DNA from: Halobaculum litoreum
GTDB taxonomy: Archaea > Halobacteriota > Halobacteria > Halobacteriales > Haloferacaceae
Assembly: GCF_030127125.1 (NCBI RefSeq)
Contig: NZ_CP126156.1
Coordinates: 124,001-188,000 of the forward strand
DNA length: 64,000 bases
Direction: 5' to 3'
Part shown: positions 37,530 through 50,230 of the stretch, piece by piece
Layout of the letters: each line of letters begins with the position of its first letter
Position numbering within the stretch: the first letter of the stretch is position 1
The notes under the pieces: generated by a model
Seen by the model: the letters and a program-made list of their open reading frames with translations, nothing else
Told to the model about the DNA's origin: nothing
Databases searched by the model: none
Made by a program: the position numbers and the translations under genes

Positions 37530-39584
37530 ATGGCAGGAATCTTCGACTTCGCGCCGGCCATCGTACTGCTCCCGTTCCTCTCGTTCCTGATCGCGGTGGG
37601 GACCGCCCTCTCCGGGCGCGACCTCCTCCCGAAGGGCGGGGCGATCCCCGGCATCGCGGCGACCGCCGGGTCGCTCGTCCTGTCGATCGCGATGGCGGCC
37701 ACCGTGGCCGGGGGCGAGGTGTACGACGCAACGATCTACACGTGGGCGGTCGGCGCCGTCCCCGGCGCCGAGGCGCCGCTCGAACTGACGTTCGGCGTGC
37801 TCGTCGACCCGCTGTCGTCGATGATGCTCGTCATCGTGACGCTCGTGGCGCTGCTGGTCCACGTGTTCTCGCTGGGGTACATGAACGACGACGGCCAGAC
37901 GGGCCTGCCGCGCTACTACGCCGGCCTCGGCCTGTTCACCGCCTCCATGCTCGGGTTCGTCGTCGCCGACAACCTGCTCATGGCGTTCATGTTCTTCGAG
38001 CTGGTGGGGCTGTGCTCGTACCTCCTCATCGGCTTCCACTTCCGCGAGCCCGGCCCGCCGTCGGCCGCGAAGAAGGCGTTCCTCGTCACCCGCTTCGGTG
38101 ACTACTTCTTCCTGATCGGCGTCGTCGCCGTGTTCGCGACGTTCGGCACCGCGCAGTTCGCCGGCACCGAGGCCGCGCCGGGCTTCCCGGCGCTCGCGGA
38201 GCAGGCGCTGAACGGCGAGTTCGCGGCGAACACGTTCCTCGGGCTCGGCACGCAGGCGTGGTTCACGGTCGTCGGCCTCCTCGTGCTCGGCGGGGTCGTC
38301 GGCAAGTCCGCGCAGTTCCCGCTGCACACGTGGCTCCCCGACGCGATGGAGGGCCCGACGCCGGTCTCGGCGCTCATCCACGCGGCGACGATGGTCGCCG
38401 CGGGCGTGTACCTCGTCGCCCGGATGTACGGCTTCTACGCCGTCTCCCCGACGGCGCTGGGCGTCATCGCCCTCGTCGGCGGCTTCACGGCGCTGTTCGC
38501 CGGCACGATGGGGCTGGTGAAGCGCGAACTGAAGCAGGTGCTCGCGTACTCCACCATCTCACAGTACGGCTACATGATGCTCGCGCTCGGCGCGGGCGGC
38601 TACGTGGCCGCGACGTTCCACCTGCTCACCCACGCGTTCTTCAAGGCGCTGCTGTTCCTCGGCGCCGGGTCGGTCATCCTCGCGATGCACCACAACGAGA
38701 ACATGTGGGACATGGGCGGGCTGAAGGACAAGATGCCCGTCACCTACTACTCGTTCCTCGCCGGGTCGCTGGCGCTGGCGGGCATCTTCCCGTTCGCCGG
38801 CTTCTGGTCGAAAGACGAGATCCTGTTCGAGACGCTGATCCACGGGCTGGACGGCGCGCCCCTCCTGTTGCTGGGGTACGTGTTCGGCCTGCTCGCGGTG
38901 CCGGTCACCGCGTTCTACACGTTCCGGATGGTGTTCCTCACCTTCCACGGCGAGGCCCGGACGGCGGAGGCCGAAGACCCCGTCCCGGTCCGCTGGAACG
39001 TGAAGGGGCCGCTCGCGGTGCTGGGCGTCCTCGCGGCGGGCGCGGGCGTGGTCAACCTCGCGCCGGTGAAGTACCTCACGGGCTTGGAGGTCGACTTCCT
39101 CCACTCGTGGCTCGACGGCGGCTTCACGAACCTCACCGTCCACCACTACGCCGAGATCGACCCGTACTCCTCGGCGTACATCGGCGGCGAGGTGACGACG
39201 GTCCTGCTCGGCGCCGCGGTGTCGCTCGGGCTGGCGCTGCTGGGCCTCGCGCTCGCGTACCGGCTGTACGCGGTGCCCGAGCCCGTCGAGCACACGGACA
39301 AGCTCGGCGCCGCCAAGGACCTGCTGTACGACAACTACTACCAGGACGAGTATCAGGTGTACCTCGCGAACCGGGTCGTCCTCCCGTTGGCCCGCGCCGC
39401 GGACACCTTCGACCAGAGCGTCGTCGACGGGACGGTCAACGCCGTCTCCAGCGTGAGCCTGTTCTCGGGCCGGCGCGTCCGGCGCATCCAGACCGGCGTG
39501 GTGAGTAACTACGCGGCGCTGGTGACGCTCGGGCTCACGGTCTTACTCGTGCTGTTCGGCGTTCTCGGGGGGTGGTTACTGTGA
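37530..39584 (+). CDS. nuoL: NADH-quinone oxidoreductase subunit L
   Basis: A 684-residue antiporter-like membrane subunit. Marks include FFELVGLCSYLLIGFHF, FPLHTWLPDAMEGPTPVSAL (lysine and histidine region) and KQVLAYSTISQYGYMM. A long C-terminal extension carries the lateral helix region. It pumps protons in the distal arm. The stop overlaps the GTG start of nuoM. The frame is intact across its whole length. Confidence 0.96.
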   Translation: MAGIFDFAPAIVLLPFLSFLIAVGTALSGRDLLPKGGAIPGIAATAGSLVLSIAMAATVAGGEVYDATIYTWAVGAVPGAEAPLELTFGVLVDPLSSMMLVIVTLVALLVHVFSLGYMNDDGQTGLPRYYAGLGLFTASMLGFVVADNLLMAFMFFELVGLCSYLLIGFHFREPGPPSAAKKAFLVTRFGDYFFLIGVVAVFATFGTAQFAGTEAAPGFPALAEQALNGEFAANTFLGLGTQAWFTVVGLLVLGGVVGKSAQFPLHTWLPDAMEGPTPVSALIHAATMVAAGVYLVARMYGFYAVSPTALGVIALVGGFTALFAGTMGLVKRELKQVLAYSTISQYGYMMLALGAGGYVAATFHLLTHAFFKALLFLGAGSVILAMHHNENMWDMGGLKDKMPVTYYSFLAGSLALAGIFPFAGFWSKDEILFETLIHGLDGAPLLLLGYVFGLLAVPVTAFYTFRMVFLTFHGEARTAEAEDPVPVRWNVKGPLAVLGVLAAGAGVVNLAPVKYLTGLEVDFLHSWLDGGFTNLTVHHYAEIDPYSSAYIGGEVTTVLLGAAVSLGLALLGLALAYRLYAVPEPVEHTDKLGAAKDLLYDNYYQDEYQVYLANRVVLPLARAADTFDQSVVDGTVNAVSSVSLFSGRRVRRIQTGVVSNYAALVTLGLTVLLVLFGVLGGWLL

Positions 39585-41114
39585 TCATCGAAGCACTCAT
39601 CGGATTCGCGTTCCTCGCCGCGCTGGTCGTCATGCTGGCGCCCGACGAGTACGCCGGGAAGCTCGCCTTCGCGCTGAGCCTCGTCCCGGTGGTCGGGAGC
39701 CTGTACATGTGGGCCGGCTTCGACGCCGGCGGCAACGCGCTCATGGCCGGGAGCATCGCCTATCAGACGCAACTCGACTGGCTGATGCTGGCCGGCTACC
39801 AGCTGCAGTGGTTCGTCGGCGTCGACGGCATCAGCCTCCCGCTGGTCGTGTTGTCGACGGTGCTGACCACGCTCGCCATCGTCTCGGCGTGGACGCCCAT
39901 CGACTCGCGCCAGTCGCAGTTCTACGGCCTCATGCTGTTCATGGAGGCGAACCTGCTGGGCGTGTTCACCGCGCTCGACTTCTTCCTGTGGTTCGTCTTC
40001 TGGGAGGCCGTGCTGGTCCCGATGTACTTCCTCATCGGCGTGTGGGGCGGCCCGCGCCGGAAGTACGCCGCGATCAAGTTCTTCGTGTACACGAACATCG
40101 CCAGCCTCGTCATGTTCATCGGGTTCATGGCGCTGGTGTTCAACCTCCCCGTCGGCTCCTTCGGGCTGCCGGAGATCACGATGGCGCTGCAGAACGGCGA
40201 ACTCGGGAGCTTCGTCGGGCTCGACCCGGCGACCCTGAAGCTCGTCGCGTTCGCGGCCATGTTCGCGGGCTTCGCGGTGAAGGTGCCCGTCGTCCCGGTC
40301 CACACGTGGCTGCCGGACGCCCACGTGCAGGCGCCGACGCCGGTGTCGGTGATGCTGGCGGGCGTCCTCCTGAAGATGGGGACGTACGCGCTGCTGCGCT
40401 TCAACTTCACCATGCTGCCGGACGTGGCGACGCGCCCGCTGGTGGCGGCGGTCGTCGCGGGCGTCGCCGTGGTGTCGGTCATCTACGGCGCGATGCTCGC
40501 GTTGGCCCAGCAGGACCTCAAGCGGATCGTCGCGTACTCTTCCGTCTCGTCGATGGGGTACGTCATCCTCGGCCTCGTCGCGTACACGGGGCTGGGCATC
40601 GGCGGCGCGACGTTCCAGATGGTCGCCCACGGGCTCATCTCGGGGCTGATGTTCATGGCGGTCGGCGTCATCTACAACGTCACCCACACGCGCATGGTGG
40701 GCGACATGTCCGGGATGGCCGACCGGATGCCGATCACGACGGGCATCCTCATCGCCGGCGCGTTCGGCTACATGGGCCTCCCGCTCATGGCCGGCTTCGC
40801 GGCCGAGTACTTCATCTTCCAGGGGGCGTTCGCCTCGACGGTGATCCCCTCGGCGCCGCTGTTCACCGCGGCGTCGATGTTCGGCATCGTCATCGTGGCG
40901 GGCTACCTCCTGTTCGCGATGCAGCGGACGCTGTTCGGGGAGTTCCGCCTCGACTCGGACTACGAGGTCCACCGGGCGGCGTTCCACGACGTGGCGCCGC
41001 TGGCGGTGCTGCTGCTGTGTACCATCGCGCTGGGCGTCGCGCCCGGCATCTTCTTCGACATGATCACTGACGCGATCGAGCCGGTGGTCGCGGTCGTCGG
41101 GGGGTGGTGCCTGA
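39581..41114 (+). CDS. nuoM: NADH-quinone oxidoreductase subunit M, frame broken at the last codons
   Basis: About 511 residues; GTG start overlapping nuoL (GTGA). It has MWAGFDAGG near the start, the FWEAVLVPMYFLIGVWGGPR block, VPVVPVHTWLPDAHVQAPTP and IVAYSSVSSMGYVILG, as in antiporter-like subunits. As written it reads past its end into a very long ORF. Removing one G from the G6 run 41099-41104 gives the end VVGGGA and TGA at 41112-41114, which overlaps the nuoN ATG (TGATG). I therefore place the stop there. Confidence 0.9.
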
Positions 41115-42623
41115 TGGAGCCCGTGCTCCTCCAGGCCGACCAGCTTCCCGCAGTGGACCGCGCTCGCGCCGGCGCTGGCGCTCGCACTGACCGGACTGCT
41201 GCTCATCGTGATCGACAGCGTCGACCCCGACAGCTCCAACCCGGCGCTGTTGGCCGGCGTCGGCACCGTCGGCTCGCTGGCCTCGCTGGGCCTCGCCGGC
41301 TGGTTCCTCTCGGCGGGGACGGGCCAGCCGAGCACCGACGGCGCCATCGCGCTGTTCGGCGACGCGCTCGTCGTCGACGGGATGACGCTGTTCTTCCAGG
41401 CGCTGTTCGCCTCCGTCACCGCGCTCGTCGTGGTCGCGAGCTACGACTACCTCCACGACCGCGCGTACCAGGCGGAGTTCTACTCGCTGGTGTTGTTCGC
41501 GGCGACCGGGATGTCGCTGATGGCGGCGGCCAACTCGCTGGCGGTCGCGTTCGTCGCGCTCGAACTCGCCTCGCTGCCGTCGTACGCGCTCGTCGCGTTC
41601 CTCAAGCGCGACACGGGCAGCGTCGAGGCGGGGCTGAAGTACTTCCTCATCGGCGCGCTGTCGTCGGCGGTGTTCGTGTTCGGCATCTCGCTGGTGTACG
41701 CCGCGACCGGGAGCTTGCTCCTGCCGGACGTGTACGCCGCGCTGTCGGGCGACATCGCCGGCCTCGACGGCGTCGCGGGCGTCGGCATCCTGATGATCGC
41801 CGGCGGCTTCGCGTTCAAGACCGCCTCCGTCCCGTTCCACTTCTGGGCGCCGGAGGCGTACGAGGGCGCGCCCGCGCCCGTCTCCGGGTTCCTCTCGTCG
41901 GCCTCGAAGGCGGCCGGGTTCGCGCTCGCGTTCCGCGTGTTCGTCACCGGCTTCCCGGTGGACGTGGGGATCGACTGGGTGCTGTTGTTCCAGATCCTCG
42001 CGGTCGTCACCATGACGCTCGGGAACTTCGCGGCGGCCACCCAGGAGGAGGTCAAGCGGATGCTGGCGTACTCCTCCATCGGCCACGCGGGCTACGCGCT
42101 CATCGGCCTCGCCGCCTTCACCGGCGGCGCCGGCGGCAACGTGCTCGGCGCGTCGATGGCGCACCTCCTCGTGTACGGCTTCATGAACACGGGGGCGTTC
42201 CTCTTCGTCGCGCTCGCCGAGCAGTGGGACATCGGCCGCACGTTCGACGACTACGCGGGCCTGTCGGAGAAGGCGCCGCTGGCGTGCGTCGCGATGACCG
42301 TGTTCATGTTCTCGCTGGCGGGGCTGCCCCCGTTCGGCGGGTTCTTCTCGAAGTACTTCCTGTTCGCCGGCGCCGTCGAGGCCGGCTTCTGGTGGCTCGC
42401 GGCCGTCGGCGCGGTCAACAGCGCGCTGTCGCTGTTCTACTACAGCCGCGTCGTGAAGGCGCTGTGGCTGAACGACCCGTCGAGCGAGTTCGAGCTCGGC
42501 TCGACGCCGACGGCGCTGTACGCCGCGGTCGTGTTCGCGGCCGTCGCGACGGTGCTGCTGCTGCCCGGCTTCGCGCCCGTCATCGAGACGGCGCAGTCGG
42601 CCGCGGTCGCCATCCTCCCGTAG
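41114..42623 (+). CDS. nuoN: NADH-quinone oxidoreductase subunit N, frame broken near the start
   Basis: About 502 residues, the last gene of the operon. From ATG 41114 the first codons read MEPVLLQADQLP; removing one base in CTTCCC (41144-41149) lets it continue as QWTALAPALALALTGLLLIV and then into the long downstream frame. Family marks: FVALELASLPSYALVAFLKR, VPFHFWAPEAYEGAPAPVSG and KRMLAYSSIGHAGYALIGLA. Starting instead at ATG 41208 would drop the first helix. It ends with TAG before a 150-base gap. Confidence 0.9.
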
Positions 42624-42776
42624 AGGGGACGGCGACCGGCGGCCGCACCCGCCGCGGGTTCGCTGCCGTTTCTCCGACGCGCGTTCGCCCCCAGCGGCGG
42701 CCGTCGACGGCCGCGCGCCGGCGGCGGCGACGGAGGACGGCAGGGTTTTCCGCTCCCGGTCCGAGGTGGTTCTGTG

Positions 42777-44234
42777 ATGCGTCGGCTGGTGCTGGGCTGT
42801 GGCTCCGTCGGCTCCGAGGTGGTCGAGGAGCTCACCGGCCGCCCCGGGGAGCTCCACGTGATCACCGGCGACAGCGGCCGCGCGACCGCGCTGCGCGACG
42901 AGAACGTCTCGGCGGTCGAGGCGGACCCGCACGACCCGGCGAACTACCCCGACACCGCCGACCTCGTGGTCGTCGCCGGCCCGTCGACGACGGGGAACCT
43001 CACGGCGGCCGACCGCGCCCGCGAGCGGTACCCCGACGCGGTGATCGTCGCGTACGCCGGCGAGGAGGCCACCGAGGCCGACCTCCGGGCGCTGCGCGAG
43101 GTCGCCGACCGGATCATCGACCCCATCGGCGCGACCGCCGACCGCGTGCTCGAGGTGGCGACGGGGGCGACCGCCGACCGCCTGCGCCGCATGGTGCGGG
43201 CGCTGCGCTCGGTCGACGGCACGCTGGCGGTCGTCGCCCACGACAACCCCGACCCCGACGCCATCGCGGCGGCGGTGGCGCTGGTCCGGATCGCCCGGTT
43301 CGCCGGCACGGACGCCGAGGCGGTGTACTACGGCGACATCTCCCACCAGGAGAACCGCGCGCTCGTGAACCTCCTCGACATCGAGATGCGGCGGCTCGAC
43401 CCCGACGTCGACCCGCGCGAGGAGTTCGCGGCGTTCGCGCTCGTCGACCACTCGCGGCCGGGGGTCAACGACAGCCTCCCGACGGACATCGAGCCGGTGG
43501 TCGTCGTCGACCACCACCCGCCGCGCGAGCCGATCGACGCGGGGTTCATCGACCTGCGCGACGACGTCGGCGCGACGTCGACGCTGTTGGCGGAGTACCT
43601 CGACCGGTTCGGCCTGCGACCGGACAGCCAGGTGGCGACGGCGCTGCTGTACGGGATCCGCGTCGACACGAAGGACTTCACCCGGGAGGTGAGCGAGGCC
43701 GACTTCGACGCCGCCGCCAAACTGCTGGCCGACGCCGACGCGGACGTGCTCGAACGGGTGGAGACGCCGAGTCTCAACCCCGCGGTGTTGGACGTGCTCG
43801 CGCGCGCCATCGAGAACCGCGAGCGACGCGGCAGCGCCCTCGCGTCGTGCGTCGGGGAGATCACCGACCGCGACGCGCTCGCGCAGGCCGCCGACCGCCT
43901 GCTCGACATGGAGGGGGTCGACACGACCCTCGTGTACGGCTTCCGCGACGGCGTCGTCTACGCCTCCGGGCGCGCCCGCGGCGCCGGCATCGACCTCGGC
44001 GAGACGCTGCGGGACGCGCTCGACCAGATCGGCTCGGCCGGCGGCCACGCCGACATGGCGGGCGCGCAGATCCCGCTGGGGATCCTCGGCGACGTCGAGG
44101 AGGGCTCCAAGGAGTCGCTGACGGAGATCGTCCGCGACATCATCGCCGGCCGCTTCTTCGAGACGCTGGAGGACGCCCCGGCGGCGCCGCTCCGGTCGAG
44201 CGAGCGGGTCGTCGCGTTCCCGGACGAGGACTGA
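42777..44234 (+). CDS. TrkA_N-DHH/DHHA1 phosphoesterase fusion
   Basis: A 485-residue protein. Residues 1-120 are a Rossmann TrkA_N domain (LVLGCGSVGSEVVEELTGRP). Residues 145-330 are a DHH domain: VVAHDNPDPDAIAAAVAL and the motif VVVVDHHPPREP. The end is a DHHA1 domain with GSAGGHADMAGAQIPLG. DHH proteins with this layout hydrolyse cyclic dinucleotides, nanoRNA or similar phosphodiesters; TrkA_N would bind a nucleotide ligand. GTG 42774 is an alternative start. A T-rich element (ggttttc) is at 42744-42750. Confidence 0.88.
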   Translation: MRRLVLGCGSVGSEVVEELTGRPGELHVITGDSGRATALRDENVSAVEADPHDPANYPDTADLVVVAGPSTTGNLTAADRARERYPDAVIVAYAGEEATEADLRALREVADRIIDPIGATADRVLEVATGATADRLRRMVRALRSVDGTLAVVAHDNPDPDAIAAAVALVRIARFAGTDAEAVYYGDISHQENRALVNLLDIEMRRLDPDVDPREEFAAFALVDHSRPGVNDSLPTDIEPVVVVDHHPPREPIDAGFIDLRDDVGATSTLLAEYLDRFGLRPDSQVATALLYGIRVDTKDFTREVSEADFDAAAKLLADADADVLERVETPSLNPAVLDVLARAIENRERRGSALASCVGEITDRDALAQAADRLLDMEGVDTTLVYGFRDGVVYASGRARGAGIDLGETLRDALDQIGSAGGHADMAGAQIPLGILGDVEEGSKESLTEIVRDIIAGRFFETLEDAPAAPLRSSERVVAFPDED

Positions 44235-44309
44235 CGCACGGGCCCCCGGGAGTCCGCCCCGACCCGTCGGGAGGAACCCTTACGCCGCCCGCCGTCGAAC
44301 CGCCGACGA

Positions 44310-45146
44310 ATGAGCGACGCCGCCGCGGACACGTCGAAGGCGAAGGTGCGGGCGTACATGACCCGGGACGTGGCGACGGTGTCGCCCGACGACACCGTTC
44401 GCGAGGCCGTCGAGCGGATCATCGACAGCAACCACAACGGCTTCCCCGTCACCGACGGGCGCACCGTCGTCGGCTTCGTCTCCGCGCGCGACCTCCTCTC
44501 GGCGGACGCGGACGCCCCGCTGTTCACGGTGATGAGCGACGACATCATCGTCGCCCACCCGGAGATGAACATCACCGACGCCGGGCGGGTGATCCTGCGG
44601 TCGGGGATCCAGAAGCTCCCCGTCGTCGACGACGCGGGCAACCTCGTCGGGATCATCTCCAACACCGACGTGATCCGCTCGCACATCGAGCGGGCGACCC
44701 CCGAGAAGGTGGGGAAGCTGATGCGGACGCTCGAGGAGATCCACGGCGTCTCCACCAGCGAGGAACGCCGCCGGGTGTCGCTGGCGGCCCTCGTGCCGAC
44801 GCAGGCGCGGGTGTACGCCGACGAGCTGGAGGGGCGCCGCTACGAACTGGAGCGCGGGCTCGCCGAGCCGCTGGTCGTCATCGACAACCCCAGCGCGAGC
44901 GGCGAGGTGGAGGACGACGGGACCCTCGTGTTGGCGGACGGCCACCACCGCGTGATGGCGGCCCACCGGCTGGGCATCGAGGAGATGGACGCGTACGTCA
45001 TCGTCATCGCGGACCACGTCGAACTCGGGATGGAGAAGACGGCCCGCAAGGAGGGGCTCACGTCGATCGCCGACATCGAGGTCGTCGACTACGCGCGCCA
45101 CCCGCTGGTGGAGACGACCAAGCGGTTCCAGGACGGCGACGACTGA
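44310..45146 (+). CDS. CBS-pair domain fused to ParB/sulfiredoxin-like domain
   Basis: A 278-residue protein. Residues 10-130 are two CBS domains (VRAYMTRDVATVSPDDTVRE; HNGFPVTDGRTVVGFVSARD; KLPVVDDAGNLVGIISNTDV). Residues 150-278 are a ParB/Srx-like domain with PLVVIDNP and the ADGHHRVMAAHRLG motif. The DGHHR motif resembles that of free-serine kinases (SerK, SbnI), which share this fold. CBS pairs usually sense adenine nucleotides. A role as a nucleotide-regulated kinase or DNA-linked regulator is inference. TATA-like CTTACG is about 28 bases upstream. Confidence 0.85.
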   Translation: MSDAAADTSKAKVRAYMTRDVATVSPDDTVREAVERIIDSNHNGFPVTDGRTVVGFVSARDLLSADADAPLFTVMSDDIIVAHPEMNITDAGRVILRSGIQKLPVVDDAGNLVGIISNTDVIRSHIERATPEKVGKLMRTLEEIHGVSTSEERRRVSLAALVPTQARVYADELEGRRYELERGLAEPLVVIDNPSASGEVEDDGTLVLADGHHRVMAAHRLGIEEMDAYVIVIADHVELGMEKTARKEGLTSIADIEVVDYARHPLVETTKRFQDGDD

Positions 45147-48707: not shown

Positions 48708-50230
48708 ATGACCGTCTGGCTCCTCGGCGACCAACTGCACCGCGACGCCGCACCGCTCCAGTCCGACGACCACGTCCTCATGATCGAGGCGCACAACTTC
48801 GCCGAGCGCATGCCGTACCACCCGCAGAAGCTCACGCTCGTGTTCTCGGCGATGCGCCACGCCCGCGACGCGCTCCGCGCGGACGGGTACGACGTGACGT
48901 ACGTCGAGGCCGAGTCGTTCGGCGACGGGCTCGACCGCTACTTCGAGGCGAACCCGGGCGACGCGCTCGTCTTCCAGCGCCCCCCGAGCCACGGCGCCGG
49001 CGAGCGCCTGCGCGACATGGTCGAGGCACGCGGCGGCGACTGTACGCTCGTCGCCAACGACGGCTTCCTCACCACTCCGGCGGAGTGGGACGACTGGGCC
49101 GACGCGAACGGCGGGTCGGGCGCGACGTACCGACAGGAGCACTGGTACCGCCACGTCCGCCGCGAGACGGGGGTCCTGATGGACGGCGACGACCCCGTGG
49201 GCGGCGAGTGGAACTACGACGACGAGAACCGCGAGACGCCCCCCGAGGACTGGTCGCCGCCGCCGATCCCGGAGTTCGAGCCCGACGCGATCACGCGGGA
49301 GGTGCACGCGTTCGTCGCCGAGCGCTACGACGACCACTGGGGGGAGTGGGGACCTCGCGGACTTCGTGTGGCCGGTCACCCGCGAGCAGGCGCTGACGGC
49401 GTTGCAGCACTTCGTCGAGGTGCGCCTACCGGAGTTCGGGCCGTACCAGGACGCGATGGTCGAGGGGGGAGTGGGCGCTGGACCACTCGCTGCTGTCGCC
49501 GGCGATCAACCTCGGCCTGCTCGGCCCGCGTGAGGTCGTCGACGCGGCGGTCGACGCCTACGAGGACCCGGAGACCGACGTCCCGCTCAACTCCGTCGAG
49601 GGGTTCGTCCGGCAGGTGATCGGCTGGCGGGAGTTCATGCGCCACGTGTACCGCGAGTCGATGCCGGCGATGGGCGAGGCGAACCAACTGGACCAGACGC
49701 GCGACCTCCCCGAGGCGTACTGGACCGGCGACACGGACATGGTGTGTCTCTCGGAGGCGGTGGGGCACGTCCGCGACCACGGCTACGCCCACCACATCGA
49801 GCGCCTGATGGTGCTCGCGAACTTCGCGCTGATCTACGGCGCCGACCCCCACGAGCTGAACCGCTGGTTCCACCTCGGCTTCGTCGACGCCTTCCACTGG
49901 GTGACGACGCCGAACGTGGTGGGCATGGGAACGTTCGCGACGGACGCGCTCTCCTCGAAGCCGTACGCCTCCTCCGCGAACTACGTGAACGGGATGAGCG
50001 ACTACTGCTCGGGGTGTCCGTACTACCACACCAAGACGACCGGCGAGGGTGCCTGCCCGTTCAACGCCCTCTACTGGGACTTCCTGAAGGACAACGAGGA
50101 GACGCTCCGCGGGACGGGGCGAATGGGGCTGATGTACTCCCACGTCGACGGGAAGGACGACGAGGAGTGGGCCGCGATCCGGGAACGCGCCGCCGAGGTG
50201 CGGGAGATGGGCGCCGACGGGACGCTGTAA
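48708..50230 (+). CDS. Fe-S cluster cryptochrome/(6-4) photolyase family protein, two frame breaks
   Basis: A PhrB/FeS-BCP-type flavoprotein of about 506 residues for light-driven DNA repair. The N-terminus is MTVWLLGDQLHRDAAPLQSD (cofactor-binding domain). The FAD region includes EGFVRQVIGWREFMRHVY and HIERLMVLANFALIYGADPH. The 4Fe-4S ligands match the family spacing: Cys in DMVCLSEAVGH, then CSGC and Cys 13 residues later in GEGACPF. Two extra bases break the frame: one in 49339-49351 (G6 or G4) and one in the G6 run 49464-49469. Correcting both gives a continuous protein. Confidence 0.85.

Follow-up and report, generated by a model that had tools for sequence, protein, structure and literature searches.

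We propose with moderate confidence that the CBS–ParB-like protein encoded in the window (the whole 64,000-nucleotide stretch of Halobaculum litoreum DNA that was analysed) is a ParB/Srx-fold regulatory switch that binds NTP and is gated by its CBS pair, and not a kinase of the SerK type. We infer a mechanism in which the CBS pair would sense an adenine nucleotide, be it AMP/ATP, SAM or c-di-AMP, and the ParB-like domain would use DGHHR (with Arg214) and the PTQ-bearing loop to bind an NTP. The bound NTP would be hydrolysed slowly or not at all, and the NTP-bound state would set the interaction with a partner protein; neither phosphorylation of free serine nor clamping of DNA would take part.

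The preliminary description of this DNA had read the open reading frame as a CBS pair joined to a ParB/Srx-like domain with DGHHR, and Pfam, the family profile and the structural model agree on that architecture (Table 1). The CBS pair is matched by Pfam CBS in two stretches (E 5.7e-28), and the DGHHR motif lies in ADGHHRVMAAHRLG, residues 209–222 of the translated frame. Among Pfam entries the C-terminal domain comes closest to ParBc_2 (PF08857), which Pfam annotates only as a putative ParB-like nuclease, yet the protein stays under its cut-off (18.7 against 23.6 bits). The same entry was matched by 15 of the 15 family members scanned (E up to 0.1, best 5.1e-5), and in M. jannaschii the PF08857 match is likewise under the cut-off. 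PF02195 returned no row for our protein at E up to 1 and an E of 0.047 for one of two non-haloarchaeal members scanned. A profile of 31 family members matched 4umk, the ParB of H. pylori (E 5e-5), and the Spo0J entry 6sdk (E 0.0021); the C-terminal domain alone had no match in the PDB with phmmer at E up to 10. The AlphaFold model of the full-length protein has a mean pLDDT of 79 and a pTM of 0.56. One of five models in the first run reached pLDDT 79 and the others 55–62, and the five models of the second run lay at 74–79, with residues 262–278 below 50. Compared with viral models, the first AlphaFold model was closest to a CBS protein and then to several proteins named ParB/Sulfiredoxin, those of phages being matched from E 5.9e-5. 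When the full-length model was compared with the PDB by Foldseek and VIA-align, CBS structures filled the matches listed, and SerK, SbnI and ParB were absent from these. The window's own genome holds one full-length match for the protein, the other eight covering CBS residues only; the gene sits in a contig of 2.8 Mb and was counted as chromosomal.

Table 1. Features of the CBS–ParB locus, in positions of the window.
Feature	Coordinates	Strand	Basis
CBS–ParB-like protein, 278 aa	44310..45146	+	ORF translation, Pfam
CBS domain 1, residues 13-66	44346..44507	+	Pfam CBS; Asp61 in 81/81
CBS domain 2, about residues 72-126 (limits estimated from the AlphaFold model), S-N-T-D at 117-120	44523..44687	+	Second Pfam CBS stretch; Asp120 in 81/81
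ParB/Srx-like domain, about residues 148-262 (limits estimated)	44751..45095	+	ParBc_2 matches, model, profile
PTQ motif, residues 163-165; Gln165 at the SerK Glu30 place	44796..44804	+	BLAST; 101/101 members
DGHHR, phosphate-binding P motif (GxxR), residues 210-214	44937..44951	+	101/101 members
T-rich promoter box, cttacg here, about 26-31 nt before the ATG	44279..44284	+	Seen in 77/80 relatives
TrkA_N-DHH-DHHA1 phosphoesterase, upstream neighbour	42774..44234	+	Pfam; same-strand adjacent in 48/80

The family is widespread. Within the same order the C-terminal domain profile matched 239 of 243 genomes at E up to 1e-10, including 204 of the 204 near-complete ones, so that the gene may serve an undescribed core function of haloarchaea. 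With a limit of E 0.01, the phylum as a whole gave matches in 251 of 392 genomes and in 224 of the 319 near-complete genomes; in both searches there was mostly one match per genome. Of the 141 genomes that did not match, 20 were listed; among these, several families (f11, f14, f16 and f25) have no match or a marginal one, and the gene is thus not universal in the phylum. For sequence comparison, 153 relatives were collected by a scan of genome contigs, of which 80, all haloarchaeal, were kept, and 20 loci were taken from other, non-haloarchaeal families of the phylum, whose source organisms are probably methanogens and their relatives. The non-haloarchaeal members are 50–56% identical to the protein of the window. 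PTQ, DEL.GR and DGHHR are present in 101 of 101 members (the window protein, the 80 haloarchaeal and the 20 other sequences), which makes the observation more than chance. His264-Pro265 in the C-terminal segment is invariant in 31 members. A divergent second CBS–ParB protein (L152, at G025:C1 in family f22) also carries PTQ and DGHHR; this paralog scores over the Pfam cut-offs of both ParB_N (PF02195, 26.9 bits) and ParBc_2, and could bridge the CBS–ParB family to known families.

The fused CBS pair looks able to bind nucleotide, as predicted from its residues, and the earlier assignment to the nucleotide-sensing type agrees with this. Asp61 and Asp120 occur in 81 of 81 haloarchaeal sequences, a set in which nine proteins had been extended past the gene end and were trimmed before alignment. 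Residues 117–120 are Ser in 79, Asn in 80, Thr, Ala or Ser in 62, 17 and 2, and Asp in all 81, which fits what we take to be the ribose-binding motif of CBS domains, S-N-T/A/S-D. With VIA-align, the model superposes on 5g5r (Z 18.1, rmsd 2.0 over 122 residues) and on AcuB with AMP (9s52; Z 17.1, rmsd 1.5 over 119 residues).

The motif of the C-terminal domain had been likened to that of SerK, and a search with SerK itself supports a relationship. The N-terminal 93 residues of the T. kodakarensis enzyme (TK0378, 5x0b; an ADP-dependent free serine kinase) matched 66 of 196 genomes of the phylum at E up to 0.01, the best match (E 7.7e-6) falling inside the CBS–ParB gene of genome G074; in the window's own genome the query had no match at E 0.01. 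Judged from these alignments, the homology of the ParB-like domain to SerK is real, by way of the non-haloarchaeal sister proteins, and the two have the ParB/Srx fold and DGHHR in common. The fold and a D-G-x-H-R motif are also shared with SbnI (PDB 6nr6), another free serine kinase. Aligned by hhalign, the family gave probabilities of 83.9 with SerK and 81.2 with SbnI, with only the DGHHR half aligned. The family profile covered positions 11–78 of the E30Q SerK entry 5x0j (E 0.19) and only positions 41–78 of the wild-type entry 5x0b (E 0.65), both below significance.

Homology to SerK does not extend to the residue at position 30. Glu30 is presumably the catalytic base of SerK, an assumption supported here by the crystal entries of its mutants, E30Q (5x0j, 5x0k) and E30A (5x0e, 5x0f, 5x0g). 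BLAST was run against SerK with 15 loci from 12 genomes, some of them the same gene, and 12 loci aligned: 11 PTQ genes, of which 9 are distinct, and L151. In nine of the nine distinct PTQ genes, P28-H29-E30 of SerK pairs with P-T-Q, and all 101 members keep this Gln. The remaining aligned locus, L151, codes for a ParB-type protein (GHRR) with Glu at the place of Glu30; another ParB-type protein (L147/L149; AGHHR, no PTQ), as well as L150, did not align there. A gap in the MAFFT alignment is placed one residue away from that of BLAST, bringing residue 166 instead of 165 opposite Glu30; neither residue is acidic in the protein of the window. SbnI, which has no CBS pair, carries H-E (Glu at 20) where our protein carries T-Q. 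In SerK, whose chain has 242 residues with the motif at 69–73, about 170 residues also lie beyond DGHHR, against 64 past Arg214 here, and the rest of the SerK enzyme is thus absent. With the SerK-type Glu and the C-terminal part both missing, identity with SerK becomes less likely and the homology is left untouched; the added CBS pair is a further difference. The kinase reading was downgraded for want of a Glu at position 30, and sequence comparison makes a switch under nucleotide control the likelier role. Because the Gln occurs naturally where SerK has Glu, it offers a way to tell switches from kinases among ParB/Srx-fold proteins that can be put to the test.

The broader suggestion of the preliminary description, a nucleotide-regulated small-molecule kinase, is not supported as far as kinase function goes, given the same Gln. 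A kinase that uses a substrate other than serine or a relocated base such as Glu172, and whose CBS pair switches it in response to adenine nucleotides, is a lesser possibility. It would account for the homology to SerK, for a DGHHR identical to that of SerK, and for the invariance of Asp171 and Glu172 in DEL.GR; the Gln that faces the Glu of SerK and SbnI, and the short segment after DGHHR, speak against it. DGxHR alone is not specific for kinases, and a similar motif is carried by DndB. Alternatively, the protein might be a catalytically dead SerK relative serving as an adaptor or allosteric subunit, in which the CBS ligand alone carries the signal and the ParB-like part offers a platform for protein binding. 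The Gln in place of the SerK Glu would suit such a subunit, as would the His that replaces the Glu of the ParB GERR motif. Nevertheless, DGHHR and PTQ would then be free to drift, yet every one of the 101 members keeps both, and we consider this explanation rather unlikely.

The chemistry of ParB is not complete either, because the Glu of GERR, changed in 7o0n, is His in the CBS–ParB-like protein. The profile match to 4umk (E 5e-5) aligns the Gln of PTQ with the Gln of the ParB N-P-x-Q-P-R stretch, which is the residue mutated in the Q52A form of M. xanthus ParB (7bnr). A Gln near the C motif is shared with canonical ParB and Spo0J; our protein differs from them in having DGHHR for GERR and an added CBS pair, and in lacking any helix-turn-helix or ParB dimerization domain in a Pfam scan run to E 1. 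The profile matches to canonical ParB chains are the evidence for a chromosome-partition or DNA-clamp ParB, a role that is highly improbable given the lack of these two domains, on which it was rejected, and given that chromosomal ParABS is generally absent from archaea according to the available part of PMC12704722. The earlier remark that this is no partition protein is in agreement with the missing partition-type DNA-binding domain.

A P motif that looks complete, combined with the absence of a full catalytic set of either SerK or ParB, favors a switch that turns over slowly or not at all. All 101 members have the Arg of GxxR, the P motif, and changing it to Ala abolished NTP binding in the binders studied in PMC12704722. 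As far as the available part of that paper goes, ParB-fold proteins can bind CTP, ATP or GTP with a specificity that cannot be read from sequence, and of 28 purified proteins 11 bound NTP. The other 17 bound none, which counts against the switch. The invariant DEL.GR and His264-Pro265 could also belong to an enzyme that uses a substrate, Asp171 or Glu172 could act as the base in an altered site, and D-G-x-H-R is closer to SerK and SbnI than to the GERR of ParB.

The gene does follow a TrkA_N-DHH phosphodiesterase gene, as had been pointed out, and the signal that the two were suggested to share is weakened by the wider comparison. Of 80 haloarchaeal loci, 48 have the DHH gene directly upstream (<800 nt) and on the same strand, 2 have it elsewhere in the surrounding stretch, and in 30 none was seen within that stretch. 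The 20 non-haloarchaeal loci, covered over about 7 kb on each side (less in two), gave no DHH relative at a threshold of E 1e-5. Within the order, all 121 near-complete genomes searched have a DHH relative at E 1e-60 or better, a threshold that also admits a second DHH relative of about 42% identity, so that the count is no proof that every genome retains the true counterpart. In family f38, represented by four small genomes (completeness 58–78%), two have the CBS–ParB gene and none has a DHH match. The CBS–ParB gene also appears to have a promoter of its own. A T-rich box precedes its ATG by about 26–30 nt in 77 of 80 loci when a pattern chosen after a first look at the upstream sequences is applied to the nearest in-frame ATG, whereas five control stretches gave 0, 3, 2, 1 and 1 of 80. 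The box supports the ATG at 44310, and its position fits leaderless transcripts; these make up 72% of the protein-coding transcripts in Haloferax volcanii (PMC4983044, available part). With this box the CBS–ParB and DHH genes are probably separately expressible, and a fixed pairing of the two was downgraded on account of the box and of the absence of DHH elsewhere.

Overlapping with the switch is the possibility that the CBS pair is a c-di-AMP receptor that signals together with the neighboring DHH phosphodiesterase. The frequent adjacency in haloarchaea would agree with this, and the structures matched by the model include, alongside many others, the c-di-AMP-bound CBS pair of OpuCA (5ks7). 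HVO_0990, which we assume to be the counterpart of the upstream DHH gene, adds a further point in its favor. It is listed as a predicted c-di-AMP phosphodiesterase in the available part of PMC8305020; a literature search for HVO_0990 and HVO_0991 returned matches for HVO_0990 only. The separate promoter box, the haloarchaeal and non-haloarchaeal loci that have no DHH gene nearby, and the two small genomes that keep the CBS–ParB gene with no DHH match render this signaling pair unlikely. A near-universal gene with changing neighbors fits a general sensor, such as the CBS-gated switch would be.

A different neighbor was found in some non-haloarchaeal relatives. In 13 of 40 such loci, comprising the first 20 and another 20 picked non-randomly from the listed matches and including families in which hisE had been seen before, the gene hisE abuts or overlaps the CBS–ParB gene downstream on the same strand. 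It encodes phosphoribosyl-ATP pyrophosphohydrolase (Pfam PRA-PH, E 2.4e-21 in the one copy scanned). Counted from the final base of the CBS–ParB stop codon, the possible hisE start lies between 3 nt before and 6 nt after it, and in 6 of the 13 the two genes overlap by 4 nt, the hisE start codons being predicted by position. By family, the adjacency was seen in 2 of 2 loci in f15, 4 of 4 in f23, 4 of 4 in f17, 1 of 3 in f13, and in the single loci of f30 and f24. There was none in f36 (3 loci), f19 (7), f28 (5), or in f10, f22, f12, f26 and f27 (2 each), nor in the 15 haloarchaeal loci compared, one of which (L023) has a hisE relative nearly 6 kb upstream. Such tight spacing suggests translational coupling and, in those lineages, a link to histidine or adenylate metabolism, which provides a pathway to test in the relatives. 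Closeness to a metabolic enzyme in some relatives would also suit the kinase with another substrate, and the 13 loci would suit the dead adaptor. Tentatively, the ParB/Srx fold may have a third use beside clamps and kinases, namely a soluble CBS-gated NTP switch, core to haloarchaea, common in the phylum and related to SerK with Gln for the catalytic Glu; when coupled to hisE, this switch would control phosphoribosyl-ATP/histidine or adenylate metabolism. Downstream of the CBS–ParB gene, 7 of 20 non-haloarchaeal loci (L120, L122, L123, L128, L129, L137, L138) have a gene on the opposite strand; it encodes a relative of a protein with an HrcA-type winged helix and a CBS pair, as seen by Pfam in the L122 copy only.

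The architecture, range and vertical inheritance of CBS–ParB proteins are already published (PMC12704722; Kaljevic et al., PNAS 2025). In the available part of that study, CBS–ParB is the commonest archaeal ParB fusion and is given no function; the CBS–ParB-CTPase fusions occur mainly in Methanobacteriota and Haloarchaea, are chromosomal and are vertically inherited. Architecture and range are the same as those found here. The legends define the fold by PF02195, an entry that our protein fails to match at E 1, and the available text names no CBS fusion among the nucleotide binders and mentions neither the Glu-to-Gln change nor hisE. A search on hisE together with CBS, ParB and methanogen, checked in part, turned up nothing on the CBS–ParB gene, and in the published literature searched we found neither the promoter box nor the hisE adjacency nor the Gln that takes the place of the SerK Glu. 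The Fig. 4 legend of PMC12704722 labels CBS as PF03471, against PF00571 in our Pfam scan, which is probably a slip of labeling.

Two other regions of the window are of note. At 48708–50230 on the forward strand lies a gene related to deoxyribodipyrimidine photolyase that is seemingly split. Its first open reading frame matches Pfam DPRP over residues 3–214 (E 8.6e-61) and is arginine-rich after about residue 214; the second follows at 49616–50230 and matched nothing in Pfam at E up to 0.01. Large open reading frames for membrane proteins lie at 37530–42623 on the forward strand, upstream of the DHH gene; from their translations, they look like complex I (nuo) subunits.
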